This document shows positions 16,576 through 45,178 of a stretch of DNA of 45,178 nucleotides, piece by piece. The notes below the pieces were generated by a model that had not been told where the DNA came from, made no database searches, and saw only the letters and a list, made by a program, of their open reading frames with translations. The stretch spans positions 1 to 45,178 of the forward strand of contig CALFCF010000099.1 of assembly GCA_937951345.1 (NCBI GenBank), read 5' to 3'. This DNA comes from an uncultured Granulosicoccaceae bacterium (GTDB lineage: Bacteria; Pseudomonadota; Gammaproteobacteria; Granulosicoccales; Granulosicoccaceae). Every line of letters starts with the position of its first letter. Within the stretch, counting starts at the first letter, position 1. The translations under genes and the position numbers were made by a program.

Positions 16576-16640
16576 TTCATATGATAAAAAAGCGATATTA
16601 AGGTAGAGCGAAAACGAACTTTACTGAAGTCTGGTTTTGG

Positions 16641-16670: not shown

Positions 16671-16791
16671 TACTGTTTCTGTAAGCAGTGTTTTTTAGAA
16701 CGATAGCAATTTTTGGCCGCAGGACGACAGACTGGTTGTAGAGCCGCTGTCAATCGCAGTTTGCCAGTTAGTAGTTTTAGGGAGATTTAAA

Positions 16792-18099: not shown

Positions 18100-18106
18100 T
18101 CGTACT

Positions 18107-18610: not shown

Positions 18611-19098
18611 TTTACAGCTTGGTAGAAGTAAAACGGCAACGTGGACTGGCAAGCGTGGAACTTGCAATCATTGCAGCAGCGTTTTTCTTGATTGTGATGG
18701 GAGCCCTTGAGGTGTCAAGGCTACTGTTTACCTGGAATACACTTGATGCTGTTGTGCAGCGGGCAGCACGGTTAGCTGCCGTATGCCCACGCAATCATTC
18801 AGCGATTGCACCAGTCGCTATGTTTGGCCAGGTAGGGGCAACCACAGGTGTTATACCTGATCTTACTGCAGAGAATATCCAGATTACCTACCTGGATCAG
18901 GATTTTGGAGTGGCAGGCAACTATGTCACTACGCAATATGTTCAAGCCCAGATAGTTAACTATGACATTGGTTTGAATATCCCATTTATTCAAGATACAA
19001 CAATCAACAGTCCTAACTTTACAGCGGTGTTGCCAGCTGAAAGTCTCGGGTTTATACCCGGTACTGGCGCACGTTCATGCCTTGGCTCTACTGCCTAG
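18607..19098 (+). CDS. Second TadE/TadF-like pseudopilin
   Basis: 163 residues. The ATG overlaps the stop of the first tadE-like gene (ATGA), so it is translationally coupled. The leader MIYSLVEVKRQRG is followed by LASVELAIIAAAFFLIVMGA (Glu at +5), then EVSRLLFTWNTLDAVVQRAARLAAVC. The motif is the same as in the first TadE copy but the C-terminal domain differs. It may correspond to TadF, the usual partner of TadE. Conserved Cys residues occur near the N-terminal third and the C-terminus (VCPRN, ARSCLGS). Confidence 0.9.
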   Translation: MIYSLVEVKRQRGLASVELAIIAAAFFLIVMGALEVSRLLFTWNTLDAVVQRAARLAAVCPRNHSAIAPVAMFGQVGATTGVIPDLTAENIQITYLDQDFGVAGNYVTTQYVQAQIVNYDIGLNIPFIQDTTINSPNFTAVLPAESLGFIPGTGARSCLGSTA

Positions 19099-19157
19099 TA
19101 CTGCGGAACACACGCTGCTGTGTTGTGAAATGAATTCGCAGACTATTAAATTCGAAC

Positions 19158-20297: not shown

Positions 20298-20358
20298 ACT
20301 GCTGTTTGATAAGAGTAGTGAGCTGGAAATCAAACGTATTTAAAAGGAATCAAGCGTC

Positions 20359-21759: not shown

Positions 21760-21782
21760 TTGAGGACTGACAGGAGAGAGAT

Positions 21783-22766: not shown

Positions 22767-22776
22767 GAGTCGTATT

Positions 22777-23751: not shown

Positions 23752-23771
23752 GCTGGATTGAGGCTATTGGT

Positions 23772-27202: not shown

Positions 27203-27226
27203 ATTAAATTCTCCGTGAATTTTTAC

Positions 27227-27261
27227 AGCTACGACGAATATATTAGCTACGACGAATATAT
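27227..27261. repeat. 18-bp tandem duplication upstream of the GH16 gene
   Basis: AGCTACGACGAATATATT at 27227-27244 is repeated at 27245-27261 (17 of 18 bases). It lies 25 bases before the start codon of the minus-strand GH16 gene, in its leader or promoter. Confidence 0.93.
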
Positions 27262-27494
27262 CCATAAAATACGACCCGACAACATAACTGGTATGTGCCA
27301 ACGATCAGCACGATTCGGATAGCGCATTCTCCCGTAACTATAACAAAACCCTACAGAACAAATCTTTGTTTTAGTTGCAACGCAGAAACTCCATGTCCTT
27401 CGGACGTGGTCACAGGACTGAAGCTTGGCCGGTCGTCGAATCAATGGTTGTTCCTATATCAGCGATCTCTATAGCCTCACCGTTAGGAATGCCA

Positions 27495-30991: not shown

Positions 30992-31495
30992 GTGTTTAAC
31001 AAAGGCAAGAACAAAAATCTACTAACGTACTGCCTTGTGTTTTCAGCCTTGTTGATCGCTTTCATGCAGATCTACACACATAAAAACTCTGCATTGTCGC
31101 CATGGAAGGGTGGTGGGTTCGGTATGTATACCGCACCACACTACAAATACCATCATGTGTGGATTAACATACAATCAGACGAGCCGGTTACATTTCGCAT
31201 TTGGCCTGATCTTGTATTTTCGAATGCTTATCAGACTGAGTATCTCTCGAATATTCTTCAAAGTCCGTTTCACGATAATTTTCGACGCCATCTTGACCGG
31301 TTCAGGCATTATCCTGAAGATTCTGAGGCGAAGAAACTTCTGGCCTTACTGCGTGAAATGCAATGGGATGGTAATGGTGAAAACAACTTCGAGTTAGAAG
31401 TGTTCTTTACTAAATTTGATATTTCACGCCGGCAAATCCTAAAAGAGCGAATTTACAGTAGTTCCGATTCGCATCTTGAGGCAGCCAAAGAATGA
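30992..31495 (+). CDS. Membrane-anchored protein with GGGFGMY motif, unknown function
   Basis: 167 residues from GTG 30992 with GGAG 8 bases upstream. One N-terminal membrane helix (LLTYCLVFSALLIAFMQIYT) is followed by the motif SPWKGGGFGMYTAPHYKYHH and a polar domain ending in charged helices (LLALLREMQWDGNGENNFEL). Proteins with a W-x-GGGFGM motif behind one helix are often found beside multi-pass membrane proteins of unknown role, as here. The stop overlaps the next start (ATGA), so the two are coupled and probably form a complex. Function unknown. Confidence 0.75.
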   Translation: MFNKGKNKNLLTYCLVFSALLIAFMQIYTHKNSALSPWKGGGFGMYTAPHYKYHHVWINIQSDEPVTFRIWPDLVFSNAYQTEYLSNILQSPFHDNFRRHLDRFRHYPEDSEAKKLLALLREMQWDGNGENNFELEVFFTKFDISRRQILKERIYSSSDSHLEAAKE

Positions 31496-32373
31496 ATAAG
31501 CTGTCTAATCCTGTGGTCATTTTTTTTCAAAGAGAATACCAACACACGTTATTTTTACTGGTCAGCGCACTTGTATTTGTCTATGTGCTTGAGGACAGTC
31601 ACCACTTCCCGTCAAAGGTTGGTTACGTTTTGCCCTGGGTCTTGCTACTAGCTGTTGCTTCTGTAAATCGTTGGGTAAAAACAATCTCATTGTTAGTTGT
31701 GTTAACGCTGCTGGGTTGGTCTGTTTTTACTTATTATTATCAGGTTCCCAATCATGGTTTTATGATTCTCTATATCGTGGTAGCGCTCTTTGTCGCTCAA
31801 ATGATATTTCCTCAAGAGCCGGAGTTTTTTAAAAACTGCTGCTTAGGGTTGCTCGCTGTATTAATGGGGGTGGCGCTGATTCAAAAGCTGGCGTCCAGCT
31901 ATTTTTTGAACGGCAATTTAATGGCTGAGTACGTTTTGTCAGGGTTCATTTATAAAAATGTAATTGGTTTGTTTGATCCGGACTGGCGGCTTATTACCAG
32001 TAACAATCTTTCAGCTCGAAGTGCTCTCGCCAGTGATGCTTCTGGTACATCTGTTATGCTGCAAGGCATAAATCGATTCACATTGTTGCTTATATTCCTC
32101 TTTACTTATGTTTCGTTATTTTTTCAGTTTTTACTGGAATTAGCGTTATTGTTTCACAAGCGTGTTGGTGGTTGGTTGCATGTTGGGGTGCTGGGTTTTG
32201 TTGCAATGATCTATGCGTCATTGAATGAGAATATATTTTTATCTGCAAACTGCATATTGGGATACGCATTGACCAACGATTCTCAAAAAGTCTTCCGCCT
32301 TCTTTATGTCATTGCGATTTTTTATCTCCTGACTGCGAGTTTGTTCGACGTGCGGTTACCTTTGTTTGTTTAA
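31492..32373 (+). CDS. Multi-pass membrane protein, partner of the preceding gene
   Basis: 293 residues overlapping the previous gene by 4 bases. Seven or eight hydrophobic segments cover most of the length (for example LFLLVSALVFVYVLEDSHHF, LYIVVALFVAQMIFPQEPEF, LLLIFLFTYVSLFFQFLLEL, GVLGFVAMIYASLNENIFLS). A loop of about 50 residues (FDPDWRLITSNNLSARSALA) separates the two halves. The layout recalls HTTM/gamma-carboxylase-like membrane proteins, but I see no diagnostic residues, so this is only a suggestion. It may act with the downstream methyltransferase or lasso genes; there is no direct evidence. Confidence 0.75.
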   Translation: MNKLSNPVVIFFQREYQHTLFLLVSALVFVYVLEDSHHFPSKVGYVLPWVLLLAVASVNRWVKTISLLVVLTLLGWSVFTYYYQVPNHGFMILYIVVALFVAQMIFPQEPEFFKNCCLGLLAVLMGVALIQKLASSYFLNGNLMAEYVLSGFIYKNVIGLFDPDWRLITSNNLSARSALASDASGTSVMLQGINRFTLLLIFLFTYVSLFFQFLLELALLFHKRVGGWLHVGVLGFVAMIYASLNENIFLSANCILGYALTNDSQKVFRLLYVIAIFYLLTASLFDVRLPLFV

Positions 32374-32428: not shown

Positions 32429-33346
32429 ATGTCCTATTCTGTTCAAAATTTCGGCACAATGCTGTTGGATCACGTGCGTCGCGATGCGTATCTTGAAGTT
32501 ATTCGTCGTCTCGCACCGGGTTGCCGTGTACTGGACTTGGGTGCTGGCACCGGTTTTTTTTCCATTGCTGCACTAAATGCTGGAGCTGATCATGTGGTTG
32601 CAGTGGATGTTAACTCGGCGGTTAATCAGCTGACTCGAGTGCTTAAAACCACACCATATGAAGCCAGGTGTGAGGTTCTGAACGCCGATATTCGAGAGAT
32701 CGAGTTAGAGCCGTTCGATCTGATTATCGCTGACCTGCGCGGTCCTACACCCTTCTACGGTGACGGCCTTGAGGTAATGTCGTATGCCCGTCAAAACCTA
32801 TTGACAGAGAAGGGAAAACTAATTCCGGAAGAAGATCAGCTAATGGCATGCGTTGTTTCACTGCCTAATTGGTACCGGGATGTAAGTGAACCCTGGTCGC
32901 TGCCCGGTGCTGATTGGTCGAGTTATCGGGACTCTGTTTTATCCACACCAACCAGTCTTTCAACTGTTGATAAAAGTACGATGTTCTCTAAACCTGTGTG
33001 TTGGCACCGGATTGATTACTCCGATGCTGGCCACATAGAAAAACGTAAGTTCGGCTCTCAGAATACGATAACAATTTCGCAATCCGGGCTCGTTCACGGT
33101 GTGTTATGTTGGTTTGAAACCGTGTTGACAGAGGATATCGGTTATCGTACCGAACCGTCCAATCACAAGCCCACATACGGTCGATTACTGCTCCCGTTTC
33201 TAACGCCTGTAGCCGTGTCAGCAGGCCAGGAATGTGATTTGACCGTACAGTGCTATCGATTGAAGAAAAACTGGACCTGGGATTGGGGTATTCATGGTGA
33301 TGCCCTAATGGCTAGAAATAGCTCTGTGGGTGTGGGATTTTTGTAA
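32429..33346 (+). CDS. PRMT-like SAM-dependent methyltransferase
   Basis: 305 residues. The class I methyltransferase fold is clear: motif I VLDLGAGTGFFSIAALNAGA (residues 34-53), the acidic end of beta-2 (VVAVDVN, D60), post-I CEVLNADIREIE, and FDLIIADLRGPTPFYGDGLE. The following LLTEKGKLIPEEDQLM resembles protein arginine methyltransferases, which have a beta-barrel after this point. The usual double-E loop (SEWMG) is replaced by ADLRG, so the first catalytic Glu is missing and target choice may differ. It starts 55 bases after the membrane gene and ends about 125 bases before the lasso promoter. Substrate unknown; peptide methylation is possible. Confidence 0.8.
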   Translation: MSYSVQNFGTMLLDHVRRDAYLEVIRRLAPGCRVLDLGAGTGFFSIAALNAGADHVVAVDVNSAVNQLTRVLKTTPYEARCEVLNADIREIELEPFDLIIADLRGPTPFYGDGLEVMSYARQNLLTEKGKLIPEEDQLMACVVSLPNWYRDVSEPWSLPGADWSSYRDSVLSTPTSLSTVDKSTMFSKPVCWHRIDYSDAGHIEKRKFGSQNTITISQSGLVHGVLCWFETVLTEDIGYRTEPSNHKPTYGRLLLPFLTPVAVSAGQECDLTVQCYRLKKNWTWDWGIHGDALMARNSSVGVGFL

Positions 33347-33471: not shown

Positions 33472-33500
33472 TTGGTGGACATTAGCGCAATGTATATAAT
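33472..33500 (+). promoter_or_regulatory. Candidate promoter of the lasso operon
   Basis: TTGGTG (33472-33477), a 17-base spacer and a perfect TATAAT (33495-33500) lie 87 bases before the ATG of the pqqD-like gene. The -10 is consensus and the -35 matches in the first three bases. Confidence 0.6.
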
Positions 33501-33586
33501 AGTCAGCTTATTCAATTGCTTAGCAAAACGGGGTGTGTTGGGCTAAACATTGAGTGTGTTGTCACATTGATTGTGGAGTGTTCATT

Positions 33587-33862
33587 ATGGAAAATACAAT
33601 ATATACACAGCCCGACAATGTGATATTAAGGGATGTAGGCGACGAAACGTTGCTGCTTAATATAGACACTGAGCAATATTTTGGACTGAATTCCGTCGGC
33701 ACGGAAATGTACCGACGACTTGTATCTGGTGAAACATTAGCGTCCACACTGGAAGCTCTCGCCAGTATCTATTCTGTCTCTATGGAAGTACTCGAAGAAG
33801 ACTGTGCCGAATTGGTAGGAAATTTACTGAATAATCAGTTAATCGCAGTCCGCGAAGCGTGA
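33587..33862 (+). CDS. PqqD-like leader-peptide-binding protein (lasso B1)
   Basis: 91 residues from ATG 33587, with GTGGAG 9-10 bases upstream; the frame also opens back to 33554 without support. Winged-helix PqqD/RRE fold: VILRDVGDETLLLNIDTEQY, FGLNSVGTEMYRRLVSGETL, then ALASIYSVSMEVLEEDCAEL and a final LLNNQLIAV. This is the standard PqqD-type pattern ('lnt..y..LN..G...w..l'). In lasso clusters the separate B1 protein binds the precursor leader (through Tyr, Pro and Leu of the YxxPxL motif) and hands it to peptidase B2. It overlaps the B2 gene by 4 bases. Its split from B2 is typical of paeninodin-like and actinobacterial-type clusters, less so of classical proteobacterial ones. Confidence 0.93.
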   Translation: MENTIYTQPDNVILRDVGDETLLLNIDTEQYFGLNSVGTEMYRRLVSGETLASTLEALASIYSVSMEVLEEDCAELVGNLLNNQLIAVREA

Positions 33863-34356
33863 CAATTTCTTATCCGCGAATTTCTCGAGCATTAAAACTG
33901 ACGGGTAAGTCGCCGGCAGTTGCGGTAATGGGCGTCGTTTGTATTCCACTATTGCACTTTGCCGTAAAAGCAAAGTTACTGAAATCAAGACCAACTGCTT
34001 TGTGGCTTGCCAGCAAAGCAGGTGCTGAGTATCGCCGGCCGGCCGGTACCGAACCGCAAGACATTGAGCGCGCATTTGATTATGCCGGTGCACTGCATTT
34101 AGGCGTTCGTTTATGGCGCTTAAACGCGAATTCGTGCATAGCGCGTTCCATCATTCTATGGGTAATTTGCGTTCGACAATCTATTCCAGCAAAAGTTATT
34201 GTCGGTGCACCAACCGGAACTACAAAAGATTTTCACGCCTGGGTTGAAGTGCACGACACGCCTGTTAACGACAGCATGGATGTGCGCAGTCGTTACGGGG
34301 CGTTCGATTCCGCTTATTTAGAATTCCCTTTATCTGTCGCTGGTGCTGACTGTTGA
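33859..34356 (+). CDS. Lasso peptide B2 leader peptidase (transglutaminase-like)
   Basis: 165 residues from GTG 33859, overlapping the B1 stop (GTGA). A transglutaminase-like cysteine peptidase that removes the leader after the residue behind the conserved Thr. The catalytic Cys is C93 in LNANSCIARSIILW and the His is H126 in TKDFHAWVEVHD, followed by an Asp candidate in PVND (D138). An N-terminal helical part (AVMGVVCIPLLHFAVKAKLL) resembles the membrane-like or substrate-gripping region seen in B2 proteins. The length is normal for B2 (about 140-170). The four-base overlaps on both sides mean B1, B2 and the kinase are co-translated. Confidence 0.92.
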   Translation: MTISYPRISRALKLTGKSPAVAVMGVVCIPLLHFAVKAKLLKSRPTALWLASKAGAEYRRPAGTEPQDIERAFDYAGALHLGVRLWRLNANSCIARSIILWVICVRQSIPAKVIVGAPTGTTKDFHAWVEVHDTPVNDSMDVRSRYGAFDSAYLEFPLSVAGADC

Positions 34357-35258
34357 ACAACCAACTCGTCAGGGTCTACGGATCTGTTGCCAGTATACCG
34401 CGTGAAATTTGTCTGCCGCTTGAAGTAATTTCCGAGTGTGTCCTACCTGACGTTATCGCATCAATTGGTGCGCTGGATAACCCGGAAACTGCATTCGAGC
34501 TGGATGCTGCAGTGGATCTACATATTTCCGGAAATTGTGTATCCGTGTACCCCAAAATGGAGCTTGGGCCCAGAGGCTATGAGCATTACATAATCGATCA
34601 TGCCGTACCCCACGCGCTTACTCACATAGGGAAATATGTTTTGCATGCTGCAGCATTGTCCAAAGGTGGTAAAGGTGTCCTGTTGTTGGGTGCGTCCGGA
34701 GCAGGGAAGTCATCGCTGTGTGCGCATCTTATTAAAAACGGCTGGCAGGCTCTGGGCGACGATGCCGTTGGGCTGGCGGTTGAGGGTAATACCTGCGTTA
34801 TGCACCCCGCCTATCCGGGCCTTCGACTGCATCCGGGCGATACGACGACGGAACTCCTGGCTGCAAGCACGGAAAGCGATGGAAACACTGAGGCTGTGGA
34901 TGGAAATCTATTCGCCGGCGTTGCCGGGCTTGTTGCTGAATATGGCTACAAGACTCGCGTAAATATTACCGAAACGTCGTTTCAATCAAGCTCGCACGCA
35001 GCCCAGGTTGTGATTTTGCTCGGCCAGGATGAGAATTTTCGGGCAACTCGGATTGGTAGTGTCGAACTATGCGCTGCACTAACCGGTTCGATGTTTTTTC
35101 CTGCGGCTGAAAACATAAAAGCCATTGAGCGACTGCAACTGGTCAGCTCCTTTGCAACCAAGTTGTCAGGCCACAAAATTGATTACCCAAGAACCCTTCA
35201 AGGCCTCGATGAGATGAGCCAGTGGCTTGAAACCAACATCAGCAGCTCAGGGGTCTAA
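34353..35258 (+). CDS. HPr-kinase-like protein of the lasso locus
   Basis: 301 residues from TTG 34353, overlapping the B2 stop. The P-loop VLLLGASGAGKSSLCAHLIK (GASGAGKS at 113-120) and the WQALGDDAVG segment (DD at about 136-137) are the HPr kinase/phosphorylase features. The N-terminal 100 residues are variable. The same protein family in paeninodin-like lasso clusters is known to phosphorylate the C-terminal Ser of the precursor. Here neither precursor ends in Ser, so the target is unclear. A role on an internal Ser (S5 in both cores) or a different phosphorylated group is inference. Cytosolic. Confidence 0.88.
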   Translation: MNNQLVRVYGSVASIPREICLPLEVISECVLPDVIASIGALDNPETAFELDAAVDLHISGNCVSVYPKMELGPRGYEHYIIDHAVPHALTHIGKYVLHAAALSKGGKGVLLLGASGAGKSSLCAHLIKNGWQALGDDAVGLAVEGNTCVMHPAYPGLRLHPGDTTTELLAASTESDGNTEAVDGNLFAGVAGLVAEYGYKTRVNITETSFQSSSHAAQVVILLGQDENFRATRIGSVELCAALTGSMFFPAAENIKAIERLQLVSSFATKLSGHKIDYPRTLQGLDEMSQWLETNISSSGV

Positions 35259-35282
35259 GTGTTGCGAGAGCGGCAATAGGCT

Positions 35283-37028
35283 ATGGCTGCATTTTCACTA
35301 TTGTACAAATATGATGGCGCACCCGCGGACGATCACGAACGCGCCTGTATGCTGCGTGCGTTTAAATATCACCACGGCGAGGTTGAAGTACTATCCCCGA
35401 TACCCGGTCTGACCTTATTTTTGCATTCGTGTGCGTGGGAACCCAAGCCTCATTTACTGGAGCGTGGTGATTTAAACGGTGTGGCCGTTGGCAGGGGCAA
35501 ATTGCGGCAGGTAAGCAGTAAAAATGGCGCGCCTGAAGTCGAGGATATTTTACTGGAAGGCACAGCGACCGGGGTCATCTGGTCGCGTGAGTCGCTCGCC
35601 TTGCTCACTGACCGGTGTTCGCAAAGAGCTGTTTGGTACCTTGATGGGGGCAGATTTTTACTCGCCGGTAGTGAACCGCGATTAATACTTGGGCATCCCG
35701 CGGTAAGTGCTGAACCCGATGAACAAACTCTTGCCGAGCGCGTTTTAAACAAACCTTCAACACCGTGCCGCTCTATTTACAAAAATATTCATAGCTTGCC
35801 GCCCGGTGGTCGCCTTGTTTCAAAGGCAGGGGTAAATAAACGCGATGCCTGGCATGAGTTTCAATATAAGGTCGATAAAAGAAAATCGTTTACAGATTGG
35901 TGTGAAGAAATTGAACACTGTACGAGCGACATTATGCAAGAGCATATTCGTCTGCTGGACGGTGATAATTTCTCACTGTCACTCAGTGGCGGGCTCGACT
36001 CCTCTGTTCTAGCCGGTTTCATCAAGTTTTACGCTGCGGATAAAAATTGTCTGGCGAGTACGTTTGGTTATCCGGGGATGCCTTGCGATGAATCTCATTT
36101 TCAGGATGCAGTACTAGAGGGTGGCTCATTCCAACGACAGGTATTCGATCATCGTTTGCTGGACGTAGACGCCGACATTCTCGAACCGCTGAAACGCTCC
36201 CGTGTACCCCCGTACCGACCGGAGCCATTGGCAAGAGATACCTATGATTGGAGCGCAAAAAACGGTTTCCACTATCGGTTTATGGGAATGGGTGGTGACG
36301 AGTTCTTCGCTCCACACGGTGAGACATTACTTGACCTACTGTTTTCCGGTCAGTGGGGGCGAATAGGTACATCCATTAAACAGCAGGGTGTAGCGCCAGC
36401 GTTAAAACGATGTATTGAGCACGTTCCTTTACCGCTTGTTCAGTTACGGCGTCGCTCGAATTTGCCAGGCTGGATAGGGCCTCGACTCAGGCATGATTTT
36501 AAAGCACATCGCCTGTTTGATTTTCAACGCAGGCTACCCGGGTATAAAGCAAAAGCAGACGAACGGGCATACCAGTTGTTTAATACAGGTTCGTTGGCCA
36601 TTAATCTGGAATCTTTTGAATTTCTCTCGGCTGATCTGCAACAAGAGTTTATAAATCCATTTTATGATTATCGGTTGGCAGAAAAGCTCTTGTGTGTACC
36701 GGAATACCGCCTTGTTTCTGCCAGTGATATCCGGCATCTACAGCGCACCAGCTACGCCGGTTTTCTGCCCGATTTAGTCAGATCGAGACGGGGCAAAGTG
36801 CACTTTGATTACCCGTTGGTTGCCCACCTCAAGGAACCCTGGTTCGAGTCATTTTTTCAGTCTACCCGGCTGCAGAGAGAAGGCTGGATCGATGGCGATA
36901 GCATTCGGTCTATCTTTACCAGTGTGACAAGGCATCCAGGATGGCCCGAATCAGTCGACACGCTTCCGCCGCATGCGACTATACTCTGGAATCTGATTGG
37001 TTTAGAGCTGTGGCTTAATTCACTTTAA
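35283..37028 (+). CDS. Lasso peptide macrolactam synthetase (asparagine-synthetase-like, C protein)
   Basis: 581 residues starting at ATG 35283, 24 bases after the kinase stop. ATP-dependent enzyme that activates the Asp or Glu side chain of the core and joins it to the Gly1 amino group. The PP-loop ATP site is SLSLSGGLDSSVLAGF (about 231-246). The N-terminal glutaminase-like half lacks the Cys at position 2 (MAAFSL), so it cannot use glutamine, as expected for lasso cyclases. The synthetase half has FMGMGGDEFFAPHGET and the usual helical C-terminus. The C-terminal codons and stop lie inside a 10-bp tandem repeat. It is followed by the first precursor gene, about 160 bases on. Confidence 0.95.
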   Translation: MAAFSLLYKYDGAPADDHERACMLRAFKYHHGEVEVLSPIPGLTLFLHSCAWEPKPHLLERGDLNGVAVGRGKLRQVSSKNGAPEVEDILLEGTATGVIWSRESLALLTDRCSQRAVWYLDGGRFLLAGSEPRLILGHPAVSAEPDEQTLAERVLNKPSTPCRSIYKNIHSLPPGGRLVSKAGVNKRDAWHEFQYKVDKRKSFTDWCEEIEHCTSDIMQEHIRLLDGDNFSLSLSGGLDSSVLAGFIKFYAADKNCLASTFGYPGMPCDESHFQDAVLEGGSFQRQVFDHRLLDVDADILEPLKRSRVPPYRPEPLARDTYDWSAKNGFHYRFMGMGGDEFFAPHGETLLDLLFSGQWGRIGTSIKQQGVAPALKRCIEHVPLPLVQLRRRSNLPGWIGPRLRHDFKAHRLFDFQRRLPGYKAKADERAYQLFNTGSLAINLESFEFLSADLQQEFINPFYDYRLAEKLLCVPEYRLVSASDIRHLQRTSYAGFLPDLVRSRRGKVHFDYPLVAHLKEPWFESFFQSTRLQREGWIDGDSIRSIFTSVTRHPGWPESVDTLPPHATILWNLIGLELWLNSL

Positions 37029-37060
37029 TTCACTTTAATTCACTTTAATTCACTTTAATT
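37021..37060. repeat. 10-bp tandem repeat, four copies, spanning the stop codon
   Basis: CACTTTAATT is repeated four times without gaps (37021-37060), and a partial copy (TTAATT) precedes it. The C-protein stop TAA (37026-37028) is inside the first copy, so the last residues L-N-S-L derive from the repeat. Each further unit also contains TAA in one frame. Confidence 0.97.
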
Positions 37061-37095
37061 CCCTGTTAGCTAGCATTCTTGTTTGCATTATATGA

Positions 37096-37110
37096 ATATA
37101 TGTCATATAT
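37096..37110. promoter_or_regulatory. 15-bp palindrome before the first precursor
   Basis: ATATATG-T-CATATAT lies 78 bases upstream of the precursor ATG, inside the AT-rich leader (37061-37120). It resembles a dimer-binding operator or a stacked -10 region. No regulator gene is seen in the cluster. Confidence 0.45.
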
Positions 37111-37187
37111 TTGGCGGAGGTGCATGTGCTCGGCTAGGGTATTAAGATAAGACGCCGTTTGCTTACTTTGAAAAGGAGAGTTTGATA

Positions 37188-37382
37188 ATGCAACAACCAG
37201 TTACTACTAAGATTTCAGGCCGCGAATACAGCAAGCCTTTGCTAGCCGCCCACGGCAGTTTTGCCGAACTTACTCAGGGAATGGCCGGGTCGCAAAATGA
37301 TGGACAAGGCGGTGGCGCAGGTATGGCGTGTGATGTTCTGGTTCCTAATGATTCTGGTCCTGTAAACGACGGTTGCGGATAA
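37188..37382 (+). CDS. Lasso peptide precursor A1 (64 residues)
   Basis: ATG 37188 follows AAAAGGAG closely; a TTG six bases earlier is less likely. The leader, residues 1-30, contains the lasso signature REYSKPLLAAHGSFAELTQ: Tyr14, Pro17, Leu19, Gly23 and Thr29. Thr29 is at -2 and the core starts with Gly31. The core is 34 residues: ring segment GMAGSQND with Gly1 and Asp8, then a Gly-rich hinge (GQGGGAGMAC), then a tail with Pro and Asp and two Cys at core positions 18 and 33, which could form a disulfide. It lies just downstream of the cyclase gene in the same direction. Predicted product: an 8-residue Gly1-Asp8 lasso. Alternative ring acids are too far along (Asp19) for a normal lasso. 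Confidence 0.88.
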   Translation: MQQPVTTKISGREYSKPLLAAHGSFAELTQGMAGSQNDGQGGGAGMACDVLVPNDSGPVNDGCG

Positions 37383-37580
37383 ACCATCCCGGCTGACATC
37401 CGTTTGAAAGACGTAGGTTTGTACGTCGTTGGGTAGATAACTTTCCCACTTCGTCTGCATTCACTGCGATAAAGCGTAATTCGTTAAAGCGGGCCTCAAA
37501 TAACCAGTTTAGTGGCTGACTAACCGAATATAAGAATAGCTGGTTGGTCGAATTACCGAATGATGTAAGCAAAATAACCG

Positions 37581-37605
37581 AAGGGCCTGATGAGTTCAGG
37601 CCTTT
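37581..37605 (+). terminator. Terminator-like hairpin after precursor A1
   Basis: AAGGGCCTGA (37581-37590), loop TGAGT, and TCAGGCCTTT (37596-37605) form a stem of about 10 bp including one G-T pair. The T-run is short. It could end the plus-strand operon 200 bases after the precursor stop; the minus-strand exporter ends at 37691 on the other side. The gap 37383-37690 otherwise holds a minus-strand open frame (37345-37650) without support. Confidence 0.5.
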
Positions 37606-37690
37606 CGTCGTTGAGCCCCCTGCCGGCGCAGGAATAAATTCACGTATCAATACCTCGCAGAACCTCAGGTACGCACCGCGTTTGCGGCCT

Positions 37691-39388
37691 TTACAGTTGA
37701 ATTGTTCTGTCTGCCAGACCCAGACTGGCTGGCCGGTGTGTTATGAGGAGAACAGTTGCTCGTTGCAACAAGTCGGTACATGCTTCGACGTACCGTTTTT
37801 CGGATTCCGGGTCAAACATGGAGGTTGCTTCATCGAGGATTAAAATGCTCGGATTTTTAAGCACTGCCCTAGCCAACGCAATTTTTTGTCGCTGGCCTCC
37901 GGAGAGCATCACTCCTTGATCACCAATCAACGTATCCAGCCCGTCATTCAGTTCAGCTATCAGGTTTTCAGCTCCAATGCTGTTCAGTATTGATTCCAGG
38001 CGCGCATCATCAATTGGCTCTCTCTCGGCTAGAGTTCCGTATTGCGAGTCTTCCAGTATCAGGTTGTTTCTGACAGTGTTATTGAATAGAAGTGCATCCT
38101 GTGCGACATAGCCAATAGACCGCCTCAGGGTTGAAAGCGCGATGTTCTCGATAGGCTGGTTGTCGACTCTGATTTGACCACTTGTCACCGGCATTAATCC
38201 CAGGCAAAGCTTGGCTATTGTGCTTTTTCCTGATCCGTTTCTGCCAACAATGGCAATGGTCTCACCTGAATTAATAGTGAGATTAAATTCGCTTAAAACC
38301 GGGTGCGCAGCGTCGTAGGCAAAATCGACATTGTGGAATTCAATACGGGAGAGGCGGCTGCTTGCCCGGGAGCTATCGACTTCCGATACCGCATTTTTAT
38401 AGTTGGTCTGATTATCAGCGGGTTGCGCAAAGTAATGAGCTTCGTTCTTTTCGTCAAAAAATTCTTCCAGTCTTTCCGCTGCTGATAATGCATTTTGCAT
38501 ACGGCCAAACAATGAAGCCATTGTGCTCATTGGGCTAACCATAAGCAGGCCGTATAACAGCAGGCTGGTGAGTTCCGCAATACTCATAAGGTTTCGGGAT
38601 AATGTACTGGAAAGCACCCACAAAGTACCTATAACAACAATACTGCCTAAGAGCTTTATCGCCGGCTGAATACGTAACTGTCGTGCATTAAACTGTTGCC
38701 GTACTCGAATGTATTCGTCGGTTAATTGATTCAGATTGTTTTGGTTTTTTTGTTCGAGAACGAAGGTTTTGATCGTGGGTAGTAATGCAATCGATTCAGT
38801 CAGATAGCCTGAGATTCTGGCATATTTTTCTATCATTTTTTTTGATAGTCCACGAACACTTCTTCCTAGAAATTTTGTTAAAAAGACGAATGTTGTACAA
38901 AGTAAAACTGCAGCTACCCCAATGCGTGGACTAATAGTGAAAATTAGTACGAGTGCACCAATGAATGTAACGGTCTGCGGTAGGATGGCCGTTAACGCAT
39001 TGGTGGTGAATTGCGTGATTATTTGACAATCATTCTGGAAGAGCGCCAGAATTTCTCCTTTCTTACGCGATTCGCTATAGCTTAATGGCAAATTAAGCAG
39101 GGATTTGTATGTACGCGTTAATAGCCCGGTCCACATGAGGTCGGATGTTTTTATCAGCCAAAGCTGGGATACATACGTGACCACAGCTTGAACAACCAGT
39201 ATCGCCATCCAGAATGGAAACAACTGGTTTATAGTTATTGCTGCGTTCTCAGCATCCAGCAGATTGGCGGCCAGTTGCCCGGCTAACCAGGGGTTGATTA
39301 AAAATACGACGCTGGCCACGCATGACAGTAGTGTTGCGACAACGAGCTGAGGTATATAAGCCTGTGCTGAGTTGAGGATTAGATTCAA
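37691..39388 (-). CDS. ABC exporter, probably for the lasso peptides
   Basis: 565 residues. Half-transporter of MsbA/McjD type: six membrane segments in residues 1-300 (for example LVVATLLSCVASVVFLINPW, ILVVQAVVTYVSQLWL, FIGALVLIFTISP), then an ATPase domain with Walker A GRNGSGKST (382-390), signature LSGGQ (495-499) and Walker B ILILDE (514-519), with an H-loop ITHRP. The start is uncertain: TTG 39388 without a visible ribosome site is the best in-frame choice because no ATG lies nearby upstream. It is divergent from the cupin gene and convergent with precursor A1. Half-transporters of this kind export lasso peptides and give immunity. Confidence 0.93.
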   Translation of the reverse strand: MNLILNSAQAYIPQLVVATLLSCVASVVFLINPWLAGQLAANLLDAENAAITINQLFPFWMAILVVQAVVTYVSQLWLIKTSDLMWTGLLTRTYKSLLNLPLSYSESRKKGEILALFQNDCQIITQFTTNALTAILPQTVTFIGALVLIFTISPRIGVAAVLLCTTFVFLTKFLGRSVRGLSKKMIEKYARISGYLTESIALLPTIKTFVLEQKNQNNLNQLTDEYIRVRQQFNARQLRIQPAIKLLGSIVVIGTLWVLSSTLSRNLMSIAELTSLLLYGLLMVSPMSTMASLFGRMQNALSAAERLEEFFDEKNEAHYFAQPADNQTNYKNAVSEVDSSRASSRLSRIEFHNVDFAYDAAHPVLSEFNLTINSGETIAIVGRNGSGKSTIAKLCLGLMPVTSGQIRVDNQPIENIALSTLRRSIGYVAQDALLFNNTVRNNLILEDSQYGTLAEREPIDDARLESILNSIGAENLIAELNDGLDTLIGDQGVMLSGGQRQKIALARAVLKNPSILILDEATSMFDPESEKRYVEACTDLLQRATVLLITHRPASLGLADRTIQL

Positions 39389-39645
39389 TTTATATATTCG
39401 ATATTTGCGGCGTCGATCAACACCAAATTGTGAAAACTCAACAAGTGAGAGTATATAATAGCCGTCATTCAGAACATAACAGTCAACAGCTTTTCAGAAG
39501 CGTGATTCAGGTTTATTTGTCGGCGCTTAAAATGAGGCCTGTGTTCGTAAAGATTATTACCGCTACTGATTGCTACTGAGCACTTCGCACTGTCGGATTC
39601 ATCACGGTCGGATTCGTTTAACTGATACGGGATTGTCGTTGCAAT
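39389..39645. promoter_or_regulatory. Divergent promoter region between exporter and cupin genes
   Basis: A 257-base gap holds both promoters. Toward the exporter (minus) a TTGACT (39476-39481) and TATTAT-like -10 near 39455-39460 have a 20-base spacer, which is long. On the plus strand a TATAAT (39454-39459) is visible in the same AT-rich string. No terminator lies inside. The exact start points cannot be set. Confidence 0.4.
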
Positions 39646-40941
39646 ATGGATTTGGAAGCTATAAGCAAACTCGGTGACAGCCTTCGCAAGGAATACCAGG
39701 CATTGCACTCGAATGAAGAGCATTTCACCGCACTTGCTGTAGATCATCTGCAAAAGTTGGATTTCGATTTTGCCTGGGCGCCAGAGTTGTTAGCGTCTGT
39801 CAGTCTGGCAAATCCAAGTGTACCCAGCCATCGTTTCAGCGACTGGCCTATCCAGTTGTATCGAAGTCAGGAATTTTACATTGAACTGCTCGTTTGGACC
39901 AATGCTACTGCTGCGATACACCAGCACTCATTCAGTGGGGCATTCAAGGTCGTTCAGGGTTCAAGTTTTCATGCTTTGTATGACTTTAATGCCTCTGAAG
40001 AGGTAAATGCAGATTTAGTGTTAGGCGATGTGACTTGCCGCGAATTCGAAAAGCTAAGCGTCGGTGACGTTCGCCCGATAAAGGCTGGGTCAGCGATGAC
40101 ACACAGTCTTTATCATCTGGATCACCCCAGTGCCACACTAGTTGTTCGAACCAACGGTCACCCGAAATTCGCACCCCAGTTTACGCTTTATAAAAATCAC
40201 ATCGCTGTCAATCAGTTAGACCTTGCGCGAAAAGGTCGTGTTAATTATTGCGGTTGGGTACTCGACACACTGATGAGTGTTGATGAGCAGAAGACGTATG
40301 ATGTGCTCGGCAATCTATTTCAGGAAATATCCGTATCTGAGGCTGTGGTTGTGATTCTTGCCCATCGAAAAAAGCTCTTTAGGGAAGATATAGTCAAGGA
40401 GCCCGACTTTCTGGTAGACAACGGAATAGCGCAACCCGTTGCAGAGGCAGTTGTAAATGCACTGGAAGAGCTGAACGGCATCGACGAGCTGACAGAAATG
40501 CGCAACCTAACAAGCGATCCTGAGCTTCGGTATTTTTTAGCGCTGCTAATCAATGTACCCGATCAGCATTCTATACTTGCACAATTGCAAACCGCCTATC
40601 CGGATGATGATCCACTGGATACGTTTGCCGGTTTGCTTGTTCGCGTTTGCGATGAACGCACTGAGTTTGCGAAACGCATGCTGTCAAATGCAGCTAGTAT
40701 GATGGGTGGAACTAGACAGCTGGATTTTTCTAATTCGTTGTTTTCGTGTCTACCCGAAGGGATTGAAAAACGTGACCGTAAGTCTTTTTTCCGGCACGCG
40801 CTGGGAGTAAACGCGAATGTTAAGGATAACGTAAGCCAGGCCGGTAATGAAAACTGCAAAGATAGTAATGCTGCGCATCGATGGCGGGAAAGTATTGACC
40901 AATTCGCCAGCCTACACCAGCTAAAAAGGATCGTTAATTAA
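39646..40941 (+). CDS. Cysteine-dioxygenase-like cupin with a long C-terminal domain
   Basis: 431 residues from ATG 39646; only weak upstream purines. Residues of about 70-175 show a cupin: TAAIHQHSFSGAFKVVQGSS matches the first motif (HxH...K(V/L)xxG) of the cysteine dioxygenase type, and AMTHSLYHLDHPSATLVVRT the second (His plus beta strand). The two His of IHQH and a third from GSAMTH could bind iron. The usual Glu of motif 1 is missing, as in cysteine dioxygenases. Residues of about 190-431 are a helical domain without recognised family. The product could oxidise a Cys of the precursor (A1 has two) or a small molecule; inference from context only. Confidence 0.72.
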   Translation: MDLEAISKLGDSLRKEYQALHSNEEHFTALAVDHLQKLDFDFAWAPELLASVSLANPSVPSHRFSDWPIQLYRSQEFYIELLVWTNATAAIHQHSFSGAFKVVQGSSFHALYDFNASEEVNADLVLGDVTCREFEKLSVGDVRPIKAGSAMTHSLYHLDHPSATLVVRTNGHPKFAPQFTLYKNHIAVNQLDLARKGRVNYCGWVLDTLMSVDEQKTYDVLGNLFQEISVSEAVVVILAHRKKLFREDIVKEPDFLVDNGIAQPVAEAVVNALEELNGIDELTEMRNLTSDPELRYFLALLINVPDQHSILAQLQTAYPDDDPLDTFAGLLVRVCDERTEFAKRMLSNAASMMGGTRQLDFSNSLFSCLPEGIEKRDRKSFFRHALGVNANVKDNVSQAGNENCKDSNAAHRWRESIDQFASLHQLKRIVN

Positions 40942-41156
40942 ATTCTTATGGTAAAGCCAATATGGTTTTATTAAGAAATAAAAATTTGCTTTGGGTAATC
41001 AGTTTTTTTACGAGAATGGTGTAAGGGCATTCTTGATGTCTGTCGTTTTTGGTTTTAAGCAGGGCAGGTTGTTTAAGTTTTCGTTCTCCTGGTTATTGGT
41101 CGACATTAGATATCTAGAAAAGATAGGTAGAAAAGGAAGATAGAAAAGGCTGGGGT

Positions 41157-41186
41157 GTGACTGTACTGTAGGTGACTGTACTCTAG
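41157..41186. repeat. 15-bp tandem repeat with one mismatch
   Basis: GTGACTGTACTGTAG (41157-41171) is followed directly by GTGACTGTACTCTAG (41172-41186). Purine-rich imperfect repeats around AGAAAAGGA lie just before it (41115-41150). The gap 40942-41235 also holds an imperfect hairpin after the cupin gene (40943-40976) and no gene. Confidence 0.85.
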
Positions 41187-41231
41187 TTTACCTTCAGGAA
41201 CCGGATCTGAAACTGCGCCATCTTCTACGTA

Positions 41232-41262
41232 TAAAAGGCGTATTCAGATACTGAATACGCCT
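41232..41262 (-). terminator. Intrinsic terminator of precursor A2
   Basis: On the minus strand AGGCGTATTCAG, loop TAT and CTGAATACGCCT form a perfect 12-bp stem (41236-41262), followed by TTTAT. It lies 19 bases after the stop of the small minus-strand gene and supports that gene being transcribed. Confidence 0.85.
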
Positions 41263-41281
41263 CTCGTTGGGCTAACCTGAT

Positions 41282-41440
41282 TTAATTCCCTCTAGTATCT
41301 GGTTGTCGGGTGTTTGACCCTGTGTCTGGTCGTGAACCACCATCGCCTTTAGTTAGATCTTCGAAGTTTCCAAGATTACTAAGTTGGGGTTTTTCGTATT
41401 TGCGAGGTTTTGACAACTGTTTTTCGTTTTCGTCTTTCAT
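41282..41440 (-). CDS. Lasso peptide precursor A2 (52 residues)
   Basis: Minus-strand frame from ATG 41440 to TAA 41282-41284. The leader contains RKYEKPQLSNLGNFEDLTK, aligning position by position with precursor A1: Tyr, Lys-Pro, Leu, Gly, Phe, Leu-Thr conserved. Thr30 is at -2 and Gly32 begins the core. The core is 21 residues: ring segment GDGGSRPD with Gly1 and Asp8, then a hydrophilic tail (TGSNTRQPDTRGN) with no Cys or aromatic residue. The ribosome site is weak (GAGAG about 12 bases upstream). A 12-bp terminator follows. The leader match, terminator and location between two lasso-type genes make this a confident call despite its size. Confidence 0.88.
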   Translation of the reverse strand: MKDENEKQLSKPRKYEKPQLSNLGNFEDLTKGDGGSRPDTGSNTRQPDTRGN

Positions 41441-41473
41441 TTATTTTGAATACTCTCAGGGTGTTTAGATTCA

Positions 41474-41499
41474 AACGTTTTTAATTAAGGTAAAACGTT
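41474..41499. promoter_or_regulatory. Inverted repeat between A2 and the nucleotidyltransferase
   Basis: AACGTTTT (41474-41481) and AAAACGTT (41492-41499) are exact inverted copies with a 10-base centre. They lie 34-59 bases upstream of the A2 ATG and in the divergent leader of the nucleotidyltransferase gene. The geometry fits a dimeric regulator operator. The remaining region 41500-41680 shows no other clear signal. Confidence 0.5.
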
Positions 41500-41680
41500 A
41501 CTCATCTGCTTACGTTCGCAGACGGTTTCACAAACAGCGAAAAGATATTAGATTACCGCCTCGCGCACCGTCAAGCGCTTGTCACCGGTGTTTAGGCGGA
41601 ACAAGTGTAAACTTTACAAAAAGAGTAGCTGTGTTGTTCGTCACCGACACTTGCTGATAAAGAAAAGGGAAACTGTAAAT

Positions 41681-42868
41681 TTGCGTAAACATTCATCCGG
41701 ATTTGTTGCTTCTTTTGGAAATTTGGAAGTGGACATCTGTGTGCAGGCTGTGCAGGAATTTCTCTACCGTGACGCCGAGCAGCCAGTGCAGTTGGCCGAG
41801 CACATCAACATTGACCGGTTAGCGGAACTCTCATCAGAGACGCTTGTTGATGTTGCCGGAAAGTTTGGCACTGCACCTATCACTTATGCTTTTTTACAGA
41901 AGCTTGTCACTCAAGGTGTGGTGACGCAGCAAGGTGAATTGAGAACTGCGCTGCAGAAATTGGCTCAAAGCACCATGGCGAATACGGTAATCGCCGAGCG
42001 CGCGCGTGAGCAACTCCGTGTAATCGGTGAAAAGTTAGCTGAAACCGGCATAGAGGTGTGCCTGCTCAAAGGTGCGTGCAGACTATTTGATGACCTTTGG
42101 CCGAATGCCTCGTATCGTCCGCTTGGCGATCTGGATATCCTGGTGCCTGCACAACGTGCTGACGAAGCGCAACAAGTGCTCTTGAATGCCGGATACAGTT
42201 TTTTGGGGGACAACAACCCCTTCTATAACTTGCACCATCATTTGCAGCCACTTGCTCTGCAAATTGGGCAAACTCCGTTTAGCCTGATTGTGGAAGTCCA
42301 CCGTGCGCTGGGTCAACCAAGAATTGCCCGTTTGCTGCCGGCAGGAGATGTGTTGTCGCGCGCCATCGCATTGGACAAAATCCAAAATGGATTAACGTCA
42401 CCTGCATTAGATGACCAGCTCAGGATTGCGTCACTGCATGCCAGCCATGAACTGGTTAATTCGCACCGAAATGTCATTCGGTTGCGTGATTACGTTGAGC
42501 TTGAGCTCCTTGCCCGCAAGGTGGGCCAAGGCAATGCAACTAAAGGCTATTCGATGCTCGGATCTAAGCCGGATAGCTTGTTAGGCGTATTATCGGAGCT
42601 ACAATTGTTACTGGGCCTTACCCCGTGTTACCCGGTATCGACTATACAGAACAGACGACCCCGTAATTGGATAGCGAGGAAATGGCATCAATTTATTGCC
42701 AGACAGGTTTTTGAGCGGGAGCTATCGTTGGCACCCACTGAGCGCTATGCGCTGCCGGGTTCTTTGTTAAAAAAGTCGCTGAAATTCCGGTTTGCCCTAA
42801 GCTTGGAGCTTCGCAAAATTGGTATAAAGGTTCTACCCGGTGCTACCGGAAGTGCAGTCGATCAATAG
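41681..42868 (+). CDS. Nucleotidyltransferase-family protein (lasso-associated)
   Basis: 395 residues from TTG 41681, which has AAGGGA 10 bases upstream; the frame is open back to TTG 41579 but that part is basic and unlike the rest. The NTP_transf_5-type signature is visible: EVCLLKGACRLFDDLW, then SYRPLGDLDILVPAQRADEA with the metal-binding GD-x-D motif, and VEVHRALGQP as the third acidic/His strand. Members of this family are found in paeninodin-like lasso clusters next to the HPr-kinase-like protein and may attach a nucleotide to a phosphate or hydroxyl of the peptide; the activity is not established. The C-terminal half is helical and basic. Divergent from A2. Confidence 0.85.
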   Translation: MRKHSSGFVASFGNLEVDICVQAVQEFLYRDAEQPVQLAEHINIDRLAELSSETLVDVAGKFGTAPITYAFLQKLVTQGVVTQQGELRTALQKLAQSTMANTVIAERAREQLRVIGEKLAETGIEVCLLKGACRLFDDLWPNASYRPLGDLDILVPAQRADEAQQVLLNAGYSFLGDNNPFYNLHHHLQPLALQIGQTPFSLIVEVHRALGQPRIARLLPAGDVLSRAIALDKIQNGLTSPALDDQLRIASLHASHELVNSHRNVIRLRDYVELELLARKVGQGNATKGYSMLGSKPDSLLGVLSELQLLLGLTPCYPVSTIQNRRPRNWIARKWHQFIARQVFERELSLAPTERYALPGSLLKKSLKFRFALSLELRKIGIKVLPGATGSAVDQ

Positions 42869-43129: not shown

Positions 43130-45178
43130 ATGATTGGGCTAGCAAAAAAAATTAGCGGTGGGTTGGGTTTATCGAGTTTATTGCTAGCCACAATGAGCTA
43201 TTTGCCAACTGCATTGCTTGCGAACCAGGACCTCAGTGATTTCTCGCTGGTCTTTTCAGATGAGTTCAACGGTAATTCGCTGGATGCCACTAAATGGAAC
43301 ACCGGTTATTTGTGGGGCCCCTATCTGCCCATTAATAACGAAGAACAGCTTTATGTTGACGAGCTGGGTATTAACGCTGATGCGATGCAGGGCAATGGGG
43401 GTAACACACCGAGCCCGTTTGAATTTACAGGAAGCTCGCTGAAAATCATCGCGACACCTGTACAGGACCAAAGCCAGCTGCCGCCACGGCCACCTGAAAA
43501 TGACCCCATCTGGCTGAACTACCCGGAGTACCGCTATAACGGTGATGATCCGAATGATCCGGACGACAGTTTCTACGACCCTGATAATGTTAATTACCTG
43601 TCTGGCCTGATCACATCGTACGATGCGTTCCGGTTCAGCCACGGGTATGCCGAAGCACGCGTTAAATTACCGGACGGCCAAGGCCTGTGGCCGGCTTTCT
43701 GGTTACTGACCAGTTTTTACGTTGAAGATGTGCCCGAGATAGACATTATGGAATTTCTCGGTCATGACTCAGACACGGTTTATCACACCTATCACTACTT
43801 CGAACCACAAAATAACTATAACCTGATTTCGACGCCTTCCTTCACAACTACCGGGAGCGATTTCACGGGGCCTTGGTATACCTTCGCAGTATCCTGGGAC
43901 CCGAAGGAAATTGTCTGGTATGTCAATGGCGAAGAAACACGCCGGGTGACTTATCAGGAGTACGAAATCCCGAACCAGGCGATGTACGTACTGGCCAATC
44001 TGGCCGTTGGTGGTAACTGGCCGGGCTCCCCGGATACGACCACGCCATTTCCGGCTGAATTTGAGCTGGACTACATCAGGGTCTACCAGAAGAACACGCC
44101 AGCAACCATTACGCAGGCGCAGCTGGACAGCCAGTATCACTTGATGTTTGAAGACAACTTCAATGGCAACGCGCTTGATACCTCAAAATGGAATACTCAC
44201 CACTTATGGGGTCCATACTGGCAAATTAACAACGAGCAGCAATTCTACCCGGATATAGGCGATACCCATGCGGGTTACGTGAATAATCCGCTGCAGGTCG
44301 ACAACGGTACGCTAAAAATAATTGCTGAACCTGTCGCGTCTTCTGACCTGCCCGCTCAGCCGGGCATTGCCAGCAGTGCTTTCCTCGAACACCCCGAATG
44401 GCGCAACAGCCAGGCCTACAACAACCCGGAATACACCAATCCGACTAATGATCCGACCCTGGCTGTCGCGCCGTTTCTGCCGGAGTACACCAGCGGTATT
44501 ATCACCAGCTACGACAGTTTTAAATTTACCCACGGTTACGCAGAGATACGCGCGAAACTCCCCGCAGGTGATGGTCTATGGCCAGCGTTCTGGCTGTTGA
44601 ATGGCTATTACGTCGACCAACAACCCGAAATTGATGTAATTGAGCTGCGCGGTGAAAACCCGAATGAGCTGGTGCATTCCTATCACCTGTCGCCCAAACA
44701 CGGTGGCCCCCCTTCCTACAGCTGGACGACAACATCAAATACCACAAACGGATTTGCGGATACGTTCCATACCTATGGCGTCGCCTGGGAACCCGGAAAA
44801 ATCGACTGGTACGTCGACGGTGTTAAACAACACACACACACCGGCCCGAGCGTATCGAGCCAGAATATGTATGCGATTCTAAACTTGGCCGTCGGGGGCA
44901 ACTTCCCGTTTAGCTCGCCTGTTGAAAGTGAATTTCCTTATCAGTTCGAAATTGATTATGTGCGGGTTTGGCAGCCTAAGGTCACGTTTCTTCCTGAACT
45001 AGAAGTCCCTAACGATACACTGTCGGAAATGTTGACCGAAGTAGTAACGGGTTTTGAATCTTATGCGAGTGCGAATGGTACGTATCAGGTAAGCGGAGCA
45101 GGTGCAGCGAATGCGGGTTTTGGGTGGTTTCATTATGAGAATGGAGCTCTGTATGCGCAATCGTTGGCAAACGCATTG
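43130..45178 (+). CDS. Secreted protein with two tandem GH16 domains (3' end outside window)
   Basis: 683 codons are open to the window edge from ATG 43130. The signal peptide (MIGLAKKISGGLGLSSLLLA...) ends near PTALLA. The first GH16 domain, about residues 36-320, has VFSDEFNGNSLDATKWNT, the AFWLL signature and catalytic EIDIMEFLG (E203, D205, E208), ending FELDYIRVYQ. The second, about 335-620, repeats the same order: MFEDNFNGNALDTSKWNT, AFWLL, EIDVIELRG (E500, D502, E505), ending FEIDYVRVWQ. Both keep all catalytic residues. After 625 a new region begins (TFLPELEVPNDTLSEML). The domains are clearly related but divergent. The family acts on beta-glucans or algal galactans; the exact substrate cannot be read. 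Confidence 0.94.
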   Translation, partial: MIGLAKKISGGLGLSSLLLATMSYLPTALLANQDLSDFSLVFSDEFNGNSLDATKWNTGYLWGPYLPINNEEQLYVDELGINADAMQGNGGNTPSPFEFTGSSLKIIATPVQDQSQLPPRPPENDPIWLNYPEYRYNGDDPNDPDDSFYDPDNVNYLSGLITSYDAFRFSHGYAEARVKLPDGQGLWPAFWLLTSFYVEDVPEIDIMEFLGHDSDTVYHTYHYFEPQNNYNLISTPSFTTTGSDFTGPWYTFAVSWDPKEIVWYVNGEETRRVTYQEYEIPNQAMYVLANLAVGGNWPGSPDTTTPFPAEFELDYIRVYQKNTPATITQAQLDSQYHLMFEDNFNGNALDTSKWNTHHLWGPYWQINNEQQFYPDIGDTHAGYVNNPLQVDNGTLKIIAEPVASSDLPAQPGIASSAFLEHPEWRNSQAYNNPEYTNPTNDPTLAVAPFLPEYTSGIITSYDSFKFTHGYAEIRAKLPAGDGLWPAFWLLNGYYVDQQPEIDVIELRGENPNELVHSYHLSPKHGGPPSYSWTTTSNTTNGFADTFHTYGVAWEPGKIDWYVDGVKQHTHTGPSVSSQNMYAILNLAVGGNFPFSSPVESEFPYQFEIDYVRVWQPKVTFLPELEVPNDTLSEMLTEVVTGFESYASANGTYQVSGAGAANAGFGWFHYENGALYAQSLANAL

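Follow-up and report, generated by a model that had tools for sequence, protein, structure and literature searches.

The window analyzed here, a stretch of 45,178 nucleotides that makes up an entire contig of the 4.49-Mb draft genome of an uncultured Granulosicoccaceae bacterium, contains a lasso-peptide cluster at positions 33587–42868. The genes are arranged in the order B1 (+), B2 (+), HprK-like kinase (+), C (+), precursor A1 (+), ABC exporter (−), a cupin (+), precursor A2 (−), and an NTP_transf_5 protein (+), and family matches put this set at the places and on the strands given in a preliminary description of the same DNA, the span of which begins slightly upstream of B1; we placed the starts of B1 and A1 at 33587 and 37188, respectively. 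B1, B2, C, and a precursor, by which a lasso cluster is recognized, are all present, and the core parts are canonical throughout. What sets the locus apart from published clusters is the cupin, together with the absence of a C-terminal Ser from the precursors.

Core genes and precursors

B1 (33587–33862, +) encodes a PqqD-like recognition element of ribosomally synthesized and post-translationally modified peptides (RiPPs), with an ATG start inside the open reading frame (ORF) 33554–33862. It matched PF05402 (E 3e-11) as well as the NCBIfam lasso PqqD models NF033536 and NF033530 (E 3e-11 and 5e-10), the latter two under their cut-offs. B2 (33859–34356, +), a transglutaminase-like leader peptidase and the single B2 detected across the whole draft genome, scored 40.5 bits against NF033537 (lasso_biosyn_B2, cut-off 33) and 45.5 bits against PF13471, and Cys93, His126, and an Asp near position 138 can be seen in its sequence. 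The HprK-like kinase (34353–35258, +) has a partial match to PF07475 (2.9e-7, 30.6 bits) and a match to TIGR04352 (1e-10), both under cut-off. C (35283–37028, +), the asparagine-synthetase-like lasso cyclase with an SGGLDSS motif, matched PF00733 above gathering (1.4e-14, 55 bits) and NF033535 under its cut-off (7.7e-22). The ABC exporter, or D protein (37691–39388, −, with the first possible start), matched PF00664 (ABC_membrane, 1.1e-32) and PF00005 (ABC_tran, 5.4e-35), and the nucleotidyltransferase-fold NTP_transf_5 protein (41579–42868, +), divergent from A2, matched PF14907 (8.8e-23, 81.6 bits, cut-off 31.2); translation may in fact begin downstream of the TTG at 41579. Pfam cut-offs were passed by the PqqD, Transglut_core3, Asn_synthase, and NTP_transf_5 models.

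Both precursors scored above the cut-off of the lasso leader model NF033521 (19 bits), bearing out the earlier description of a two-precursor lasso locus. A1 (37188–37382, +; 64 amino acids; 26 bits) has an AAGGAGA ribosome-binding site upstream and consists of a 30-residue leader ending in LTQ, the core GMAGSQND, and a 26-residue tail with two Cys, the C-terminal end being GCG. A2 (41282–41440, −; 52 amino acids; 28.5 bits) has a leader ending in LTK, the core GDGGSRPD, and a 13-residue tail that is free of Cys and ends in RGN. The two share a GxxGSxxD core and a Thr at position −2, and the core recurs in the precursor of a second genome of the same taxonomic family (locus L025), which terminates at a real TAA at the contig end, its last residues being GGQ. 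When these three precursors were aligned, the invariant positions were Tyr, Pro, and Leu (Y..P.L), a Gly, and a Phe in the leader, Thr(−2), and Gly1, Gly4, Ser5, and Asp8 in the core. Lasso cores have Gly (or a similar residue) at position 1 and Asp or Glu at positions 7–9, and from the invariant Gly1 and Asp8 we predict an 8-residue ring, closed on Asp8, for the products of both A1 and A2. The predicted 26-residue tail of A1 with its two Cys resembles, by description rather than by sequence, that of pandonodin, reportedly a proteobacterial lasso peptide with a very long tail. A Thr at leader position −2 is stated in the abstract of PMC10368454.

B1 and B2 overlap by 4 bases (33859–33862), as do B2 and the kinase gene (34353–34356), in the manner of coupled operons, and the order B1-B2-kinase-C-A is repeated in L025. 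A2 is monocistronic, in the opposite orientation, and followed by its own intrinsic-terminator-like hairpin with a 14-bp stem and a T-rich tail (41234–41264, −; −23.4 kcal/mol, z −4.0; counted from the folded stretch 41281–41215). Because of the overlaps, the same order in L025, and the hairpin and T-run after A2, the arrangement is not one of chance. A consensus scan did not list the A2 hairpin, and it found terminators and promoters no commoner than in shuffles. A 12-bp hairpin, a possible shared terminator, lies between the convergent A1 and exporter genes (37579–37607; z −3.5; counted from the folded stretch 37540–37620), and upstream of A1 a perfect 10-bp tandem repeat, TTAATTCACT, in 4.7 copies (37015–37061) spans the C stop codon and the C–A1 intergenic region. 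Misbinning of the contig was considered and rejected: when tetranucleotide composition was correlated with that of stretches from five other contigs of this genome, the lasso region gave 0.79–0.87, near the values for the rest of the window (0.81–0.91).

Kinase and nucleotidyltransferase

An alignment of 12 kinase-like proteins shows that the window kinase retains the catalytic residues H98, K119, D136, and D137; its identity is 37% to the kinase of L025 and 17–21% to ten further kinase-like proteins encoded in lasso-type loci. According to the accessible text of PMC9266682, a His-Lys-Asp-Asp motif is common to published lasso kinases; the paeninodin cluster of Paenibacillus dendritiformis (PadeK) and the SyanK cluster of Sphingobium yanoikuyae likewise have HprK-like kinases of this kind (accessible parts of PMC9266682 and PMC8498205). 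The published lasso kinases, which come from Firmicutes as well as Proteobacteria, phosphorylate the precursor at a C-terminal Ser (PMC8498205, same part), a residue that A1 and A2 do not have, the kinases being compared here by motif and description. This terminal Ser of paeninodin-type peptides was found in none of the three precursors, since A1 ends in Gly, A2 in Asn, and that of L025 in Gln, which makes a different target for the kinase probable. The three cores have a single Ser or Thr in common, core Ser5, located inside the ring. A survey of the class yielded eight other kinase-bearing lasso loci, in six of which a precursor was located: it ends in Ser in L023, L026, and L042, in Thr in L037, and in neither in L025 and L028, and no precursor was found in L031 or L032.

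The preliminary description had likened the combination of kinase and NTP_transf_5 to the paeninodin type; both genes are indeed present, but the analogy is weaker than proposed because neither core ends in Ser. It had further taken the combination to be known mainly from Firmicutes, which is not supported in that form. The pairing is not confined to that phylum: L028, from a member of the window's class whose genome is a single 4.0-Mb contig, packs B2, C, kinase, B1, ABC, and a pair of PF14907 proteins into about 9 kb, and certain Proteobacteria also have kinase-bearing lasso clusters according to the accessible part of the review PMC8498205. Nucleotidyltransferases and kinases are often reported in rumen lasso clusters (PMC7533575, accessible text).

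Within the window, 6.3 kb separate the kinase and nucleotidyltransferase genes. A functional analog of the latter may be PsmN of pseudomycoidin, which we take to be a PF14907 protein and which papers name as a nucleotidyltransferase. The pseudomycoidin cluster of Bacillus pseudomycoides likewise unites a kinase (PsmK) and a nucleotidyltransferase (PsmN) in one lasso cluster (PMC9266682, accessible text); unlike it, the window cluster has two precursors, no C-terminal Ser, a separate and distal nucleotidyltransferase, and a cupin.

The cupin and its relatives

The cupin (39646–40941, +; 431 amino acids) had no match in Pfam (at E 0.1), NCBIfam, PHROG, or PADLOC. Its alignment-based model (predicted local distance difference test, pLDDT, 83; a single-sequence model with pLDDT 38 was set aside) has a predicted thiol-dioxygenase fold at residues 1–190, over which comparison with thiol dioxygenases gave Z 14–16 (8vni 15.8, 6xb9 15.1, CDO 14.6; 155–168 residues aligned) and comparison with ADO/PCO gave Z 11–12. 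Foldseek was concordant (E 2e-6). The structural matches cover residues 2–192, the C-terminal ~240 residues being helical and unmatched. H92, H94, H153, and H157 are invariant in all 50 rows of an alignment of the window protein with 49 of the 67 full-length family members, in an HxH...H pattern as in thiol dioxygenases. The modeled protein thus belongs to the thiol-dioxygenase-type fold, so that the earlier label of a CDO-like cupin is upheld by predicted fold, with no library match. Fold and HxH...H pattern are alike in cysteine, 3-mercaptopropionate, and mercaptosuccinate dioxygenases and in ADO/PCO; unlike these enzymes, the window cupin has an extra ~240-residue helical C-terminal part and no sequence-level match, and a profile of its family did not retrieve thiol dioxygenases among PDB sequences.

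Single-sequence searches found no relative in 48 genomes of the order, 369 genomes of the class, plasmids, or (by peptide patterns) genome and viral contigs, and in 398 genomes of the phylum they gave chance-level matches besides the protein itself (best E 0.019). A profile search found no second family member in the 48 order and 369 class genomes. Relatives were found instead by a degenerate DNA pattern of the metal motif, which gave at least 117 loci, at least 115 of them with a full or partial relative; L061 and L096 were dropped from the 117 listed, as there is no family member inside. The counts over 115 loci given below are all among the matches listed, and each locus was taken as a fixed block of 8 kb or less, so that the flanks vary. 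Among these matches the unnamed family, of ~420 amino acids, occurs mostly in Verrucomicrobiota, Acidobacteriota, Myxococcota, and Bdellovibrionota, with some members in Actinomycetota and Xanthomonadales-like genomes.

Lasso-type C genes adjoin the cupin in 3/115 loci, in two other phyla (Actinomycetota and Myxococcota), and the possibility raised at the outset that the cupin is never linked to lasso genes in its relatives can be set aside. In an Acidimicrobiaceae metagenome-assembled genome (MAG; L114/L185), a leader-type precursor gene is followed directly by C, B1, and the cupin; close by are a sulfotransferase-like gene (read from sequence), one further B1, two further C genes, another leader-type ORF, and kinase-like genes. 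In another Acidimicrobiaceae MAG (L165/L186), the only one of 178 genomes of its order in which the cupin was found, a stretch of 4.5 kb contains the cupin together with C, a kinase-like gene, a B1-B2 fusion, and a leader-type ORF. In a Myxococcales MAG (L078/L189), the cupin adjoins two C-like genes and a leader-type ORF. On four ORFs of L185, L186, and L189 the leader model gave 26.6, 23.4, 19.2, and 17.9 bits, so that the fourth falls short of the 19-bit cut-off, and in L078 and L114 C is present with no B2 in view. The kinase calls in L185 (14057) and L186 were made by a custom profile (E 1e-14 and 1.5e-4) together with retained H/K/D/D, and neither protein has a Pfam match. An HprK-like protein without the catalytic His, Lys, and one Asp is also encoded in this lasso-type locus (L185:493–1371), where it adjoins the sulfotransferase-like gene.

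Genes of other RiPP classes adjoin the cupin as well: a LanC-like gene in L139 and also L067, fused TfuA-YcaO genes in L099 and also L072, and radical-SAM genes in L066, L087, L104, and L130 and also L055 and L072. L139 and L067 are from Mycobacterium attenuatum and M. persicum, in which the cupin relative lies near LanC-like and ABC genes, and L139 also has a TPR protein whose N-terminal part resembles a 2-oxoglutarate (2OG) oxygenase (read from sequence). Within L099:829–7676 (a Myxococcales MAG), TfuA-YcaO fusion proteins of about 920 amino acids are encoded on both sides of the cupin relative. PqqD-like domains, some in tandem and some with hydrophobic tails, occur near the cupin in L118, L168, and L064 (Acidobacteriota/Myxococcota).

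Profiles of B1, B2, and C that were built without the cupin loci matched 7/115 cupin loci (823,273 bases; L114 is related to L165, and L118 to L168) vs. 0/60 control stretches (750,711 bases). The controls were taken from arbitrary low-numbered contigs of 49 genomes, and the 50 loci behind these genomes were picked after the lasso matches had been seen, with all of those included. A wider count of RiPP genes gave 15/115 cupin loci vs. 1/60 controls, a comparison that is biased because the LanC, YcaO-TfuA, and radical-SAM probes came from the cupin loci themselves. B2 was found in 12 of the 49 cupin-bearing genomes, adjoining the cupin in one.

Proposed pathway and alternative readings

Based on these analyses, the best reading of the locus, and one that we consider reasonably probable, is a two-peptide lasso cluster with phosphorylation, decoration of the phosphate, and an added oxidation step by the cupin. 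Judging by gene families and motifs, the leader of A1 or A2 would be bound by B1 and cut by B2 after LT[Q/K], C would link Gly1 to Asp8 to give an 8-residue ring with a tail of 26 (A1) or 13 (A2) residues, and the ABC protein would export both peptides. The HprK-like kinase might phosphorylate the precursors at core Ser5 within the ring, and not at a C-terminal Ser, because the cores have none. By analogy with PsmN, which reportedly does so in pseudomycoidin, NTP_transf_5 may then decorate the phosphate with a sugar or a nucleotidyl group. The cupin could conceivably be an iron-dependent oxygenase that oxidizes a side chain of one precursor, for which the two Cys of A1 are obvious candidates; we hold to Cys as the substrate only loosely because precursors near cupin relatives often have none. 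A firm claim of cysteine oxidation was considered and rejected, several linked precursors being without Cys.

Several observations weigh against this reading. There is no conserved Cys, the residue being absent from A2, L025, L186, L189, and one L185 precursor, and the PF07475 score of the kinase is below gathering (30.6 vs. 33.3 bits). The cupin and the nucleotidyltransferase lie outside the B1–C operon, and the L025 contig stops right after the precursor and is hence uninformative on both. The other lasso-bearing genomes in the samples of order and class yielded no cupin. A quick tree puts the window cupin on a long branch, apart from the lasso-linked L114/L165 and L078, and weakly among rows including L099, L072, and L055. 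Finally, at the thresholds of the neighborhood count, none of the RiPP genes sought turned up in 100/115 cupin loci, each viewed in a block of 8 kb or less.

Since most cupin loci show none of these RiPP genes within their blocks, the cupin could be a bystander, and this is the main rival explanation: an ordinary lasso cluster with kinase and nucleotidyltransferase, in which the cupin was inserted between the exporter and A2 and has an unrelated role such as small-thiol oxidation. Besides the position of the cupin outside the B1–C operon, this would fit the lack of an adjoining cluster gene on the same strand. However, no second family member was found in the 48 order and 369 class genomes, yet the single copy sits between two cluster genes; further, lasso-type C genes adjoin the cupin in two other phyla, and B1/B2/C matches occur in 7/115 cupin loci vs. 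0/60 controls. We regard a bystander cupin as possible but rather unlikely.

Less likely again is that the cupin is part of the cluster but does not act on the peptide, making instead a small molecule or serving regulation or self-protection as a sensor of metal or redox state. The helical, unmatched C-terminal 240 residues and the absence of a Cys shared by the linked-cluster precursors would agree with such a role, against which stand the invariance of the metal-ligand-like His in 50/50 rows and the links of the family to several chemically different RiPP maturases. That the locus is really two clusters, one made up of A1 and B1-B2-kinase-C and the other of A2, nucleotidyltransferase, and cupin using enzymes elsewhere, is very improbable, since just one B2 was found in the whole draft genome and the two precursors agree in leader and ring motif, even though A2 is monocistronic, oppositely oriented, and equipped with its own terminator-like hairpin, and 6.3 kb lie between kinase and nucleotidyltransferase.

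Returning to the reading with a peptide-oxidizing cupin, a precedent is CanE of canucin, which likewise carries out oxidative tailoring within a lasso cluster (PMC8498205, accessible part); CanE is an Fe/2OG-dependent hydroxylase, whereas the window cupin has a thiol-dioxygenase fold. Another cupin-like protein, PbsQ, is described in the accessible text of PMC12257519 as related to a JmjC-domain protein. In the open-licence literature we found no paper in which a thiol-dioxygenase-type cupin is joined to lasso peptides or other RiPPs, and literature searches found no identical described cluster, in agreement with the initial impression that the combination is unlike any described. Given that its family also occurs near peptide-making genes in other phyla, the cupin may be an undescribed kind of peptide-modifying enzyme. 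More tentatively, and with less confidence than we attach to the pathway itself, we suggest that the cupin family, with its thiol-dioxygenase and helical domains, could be a tailoring oxygenase recruited by lasso, LanC-type, YcaO-TfuA, radical-SAM, and PqqD-linked RiPPs in at least four phyla; its substrate here would be a lasso precursor, and the neighboring kinase, for want of the usual C-terminal Ser target, would phosphorylate inside the ring.

Directly upstream of B1 lies a PRMT-like class I methyltransferase gene (32429–33346, +), the cluster membership of which is uncertain. Its product matched PF22528 (the arginine-methyltransferase C-terminal model, 6.7e-7), several methyltransferase families, and PADLOC mads_2 (56 bits over the methyltransferase core). 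It was not found in L025, and 20 of 47 other order genomes have weak relatives (best 29% identity, none strong); the neighborhoods of two paralogs contain no lasso genes, and a distant paralog is located on G000:C81. Two unannotated genes (30992–31495 and 31492–32373, the latter hydrophobic) precede it. GH16 glycoside-hydrolase genes flank the region (25610–27301 and 43130–45178), the second having two GH16 stretches and running off the contig. Elsewhere in the window are a Tad/Flp pilus gene set (13727–25070: RcpC, secretin, Tad, TadE, T2SSE, two T2SSF, TPR) and a sugar-transfer-associated ATP-grasp protein (5914–7218, PF14397).

Few enzymes are known to tailor lasso peptides oxidatively, and if the cupin modifies a peptide, its entire unnamed family becomes a marker by which to find new RiPP clusters. 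Further, a kinase without a C-terminal Ser target makes it testable whether lasso kinases mark another residue, perhaps within the ring.

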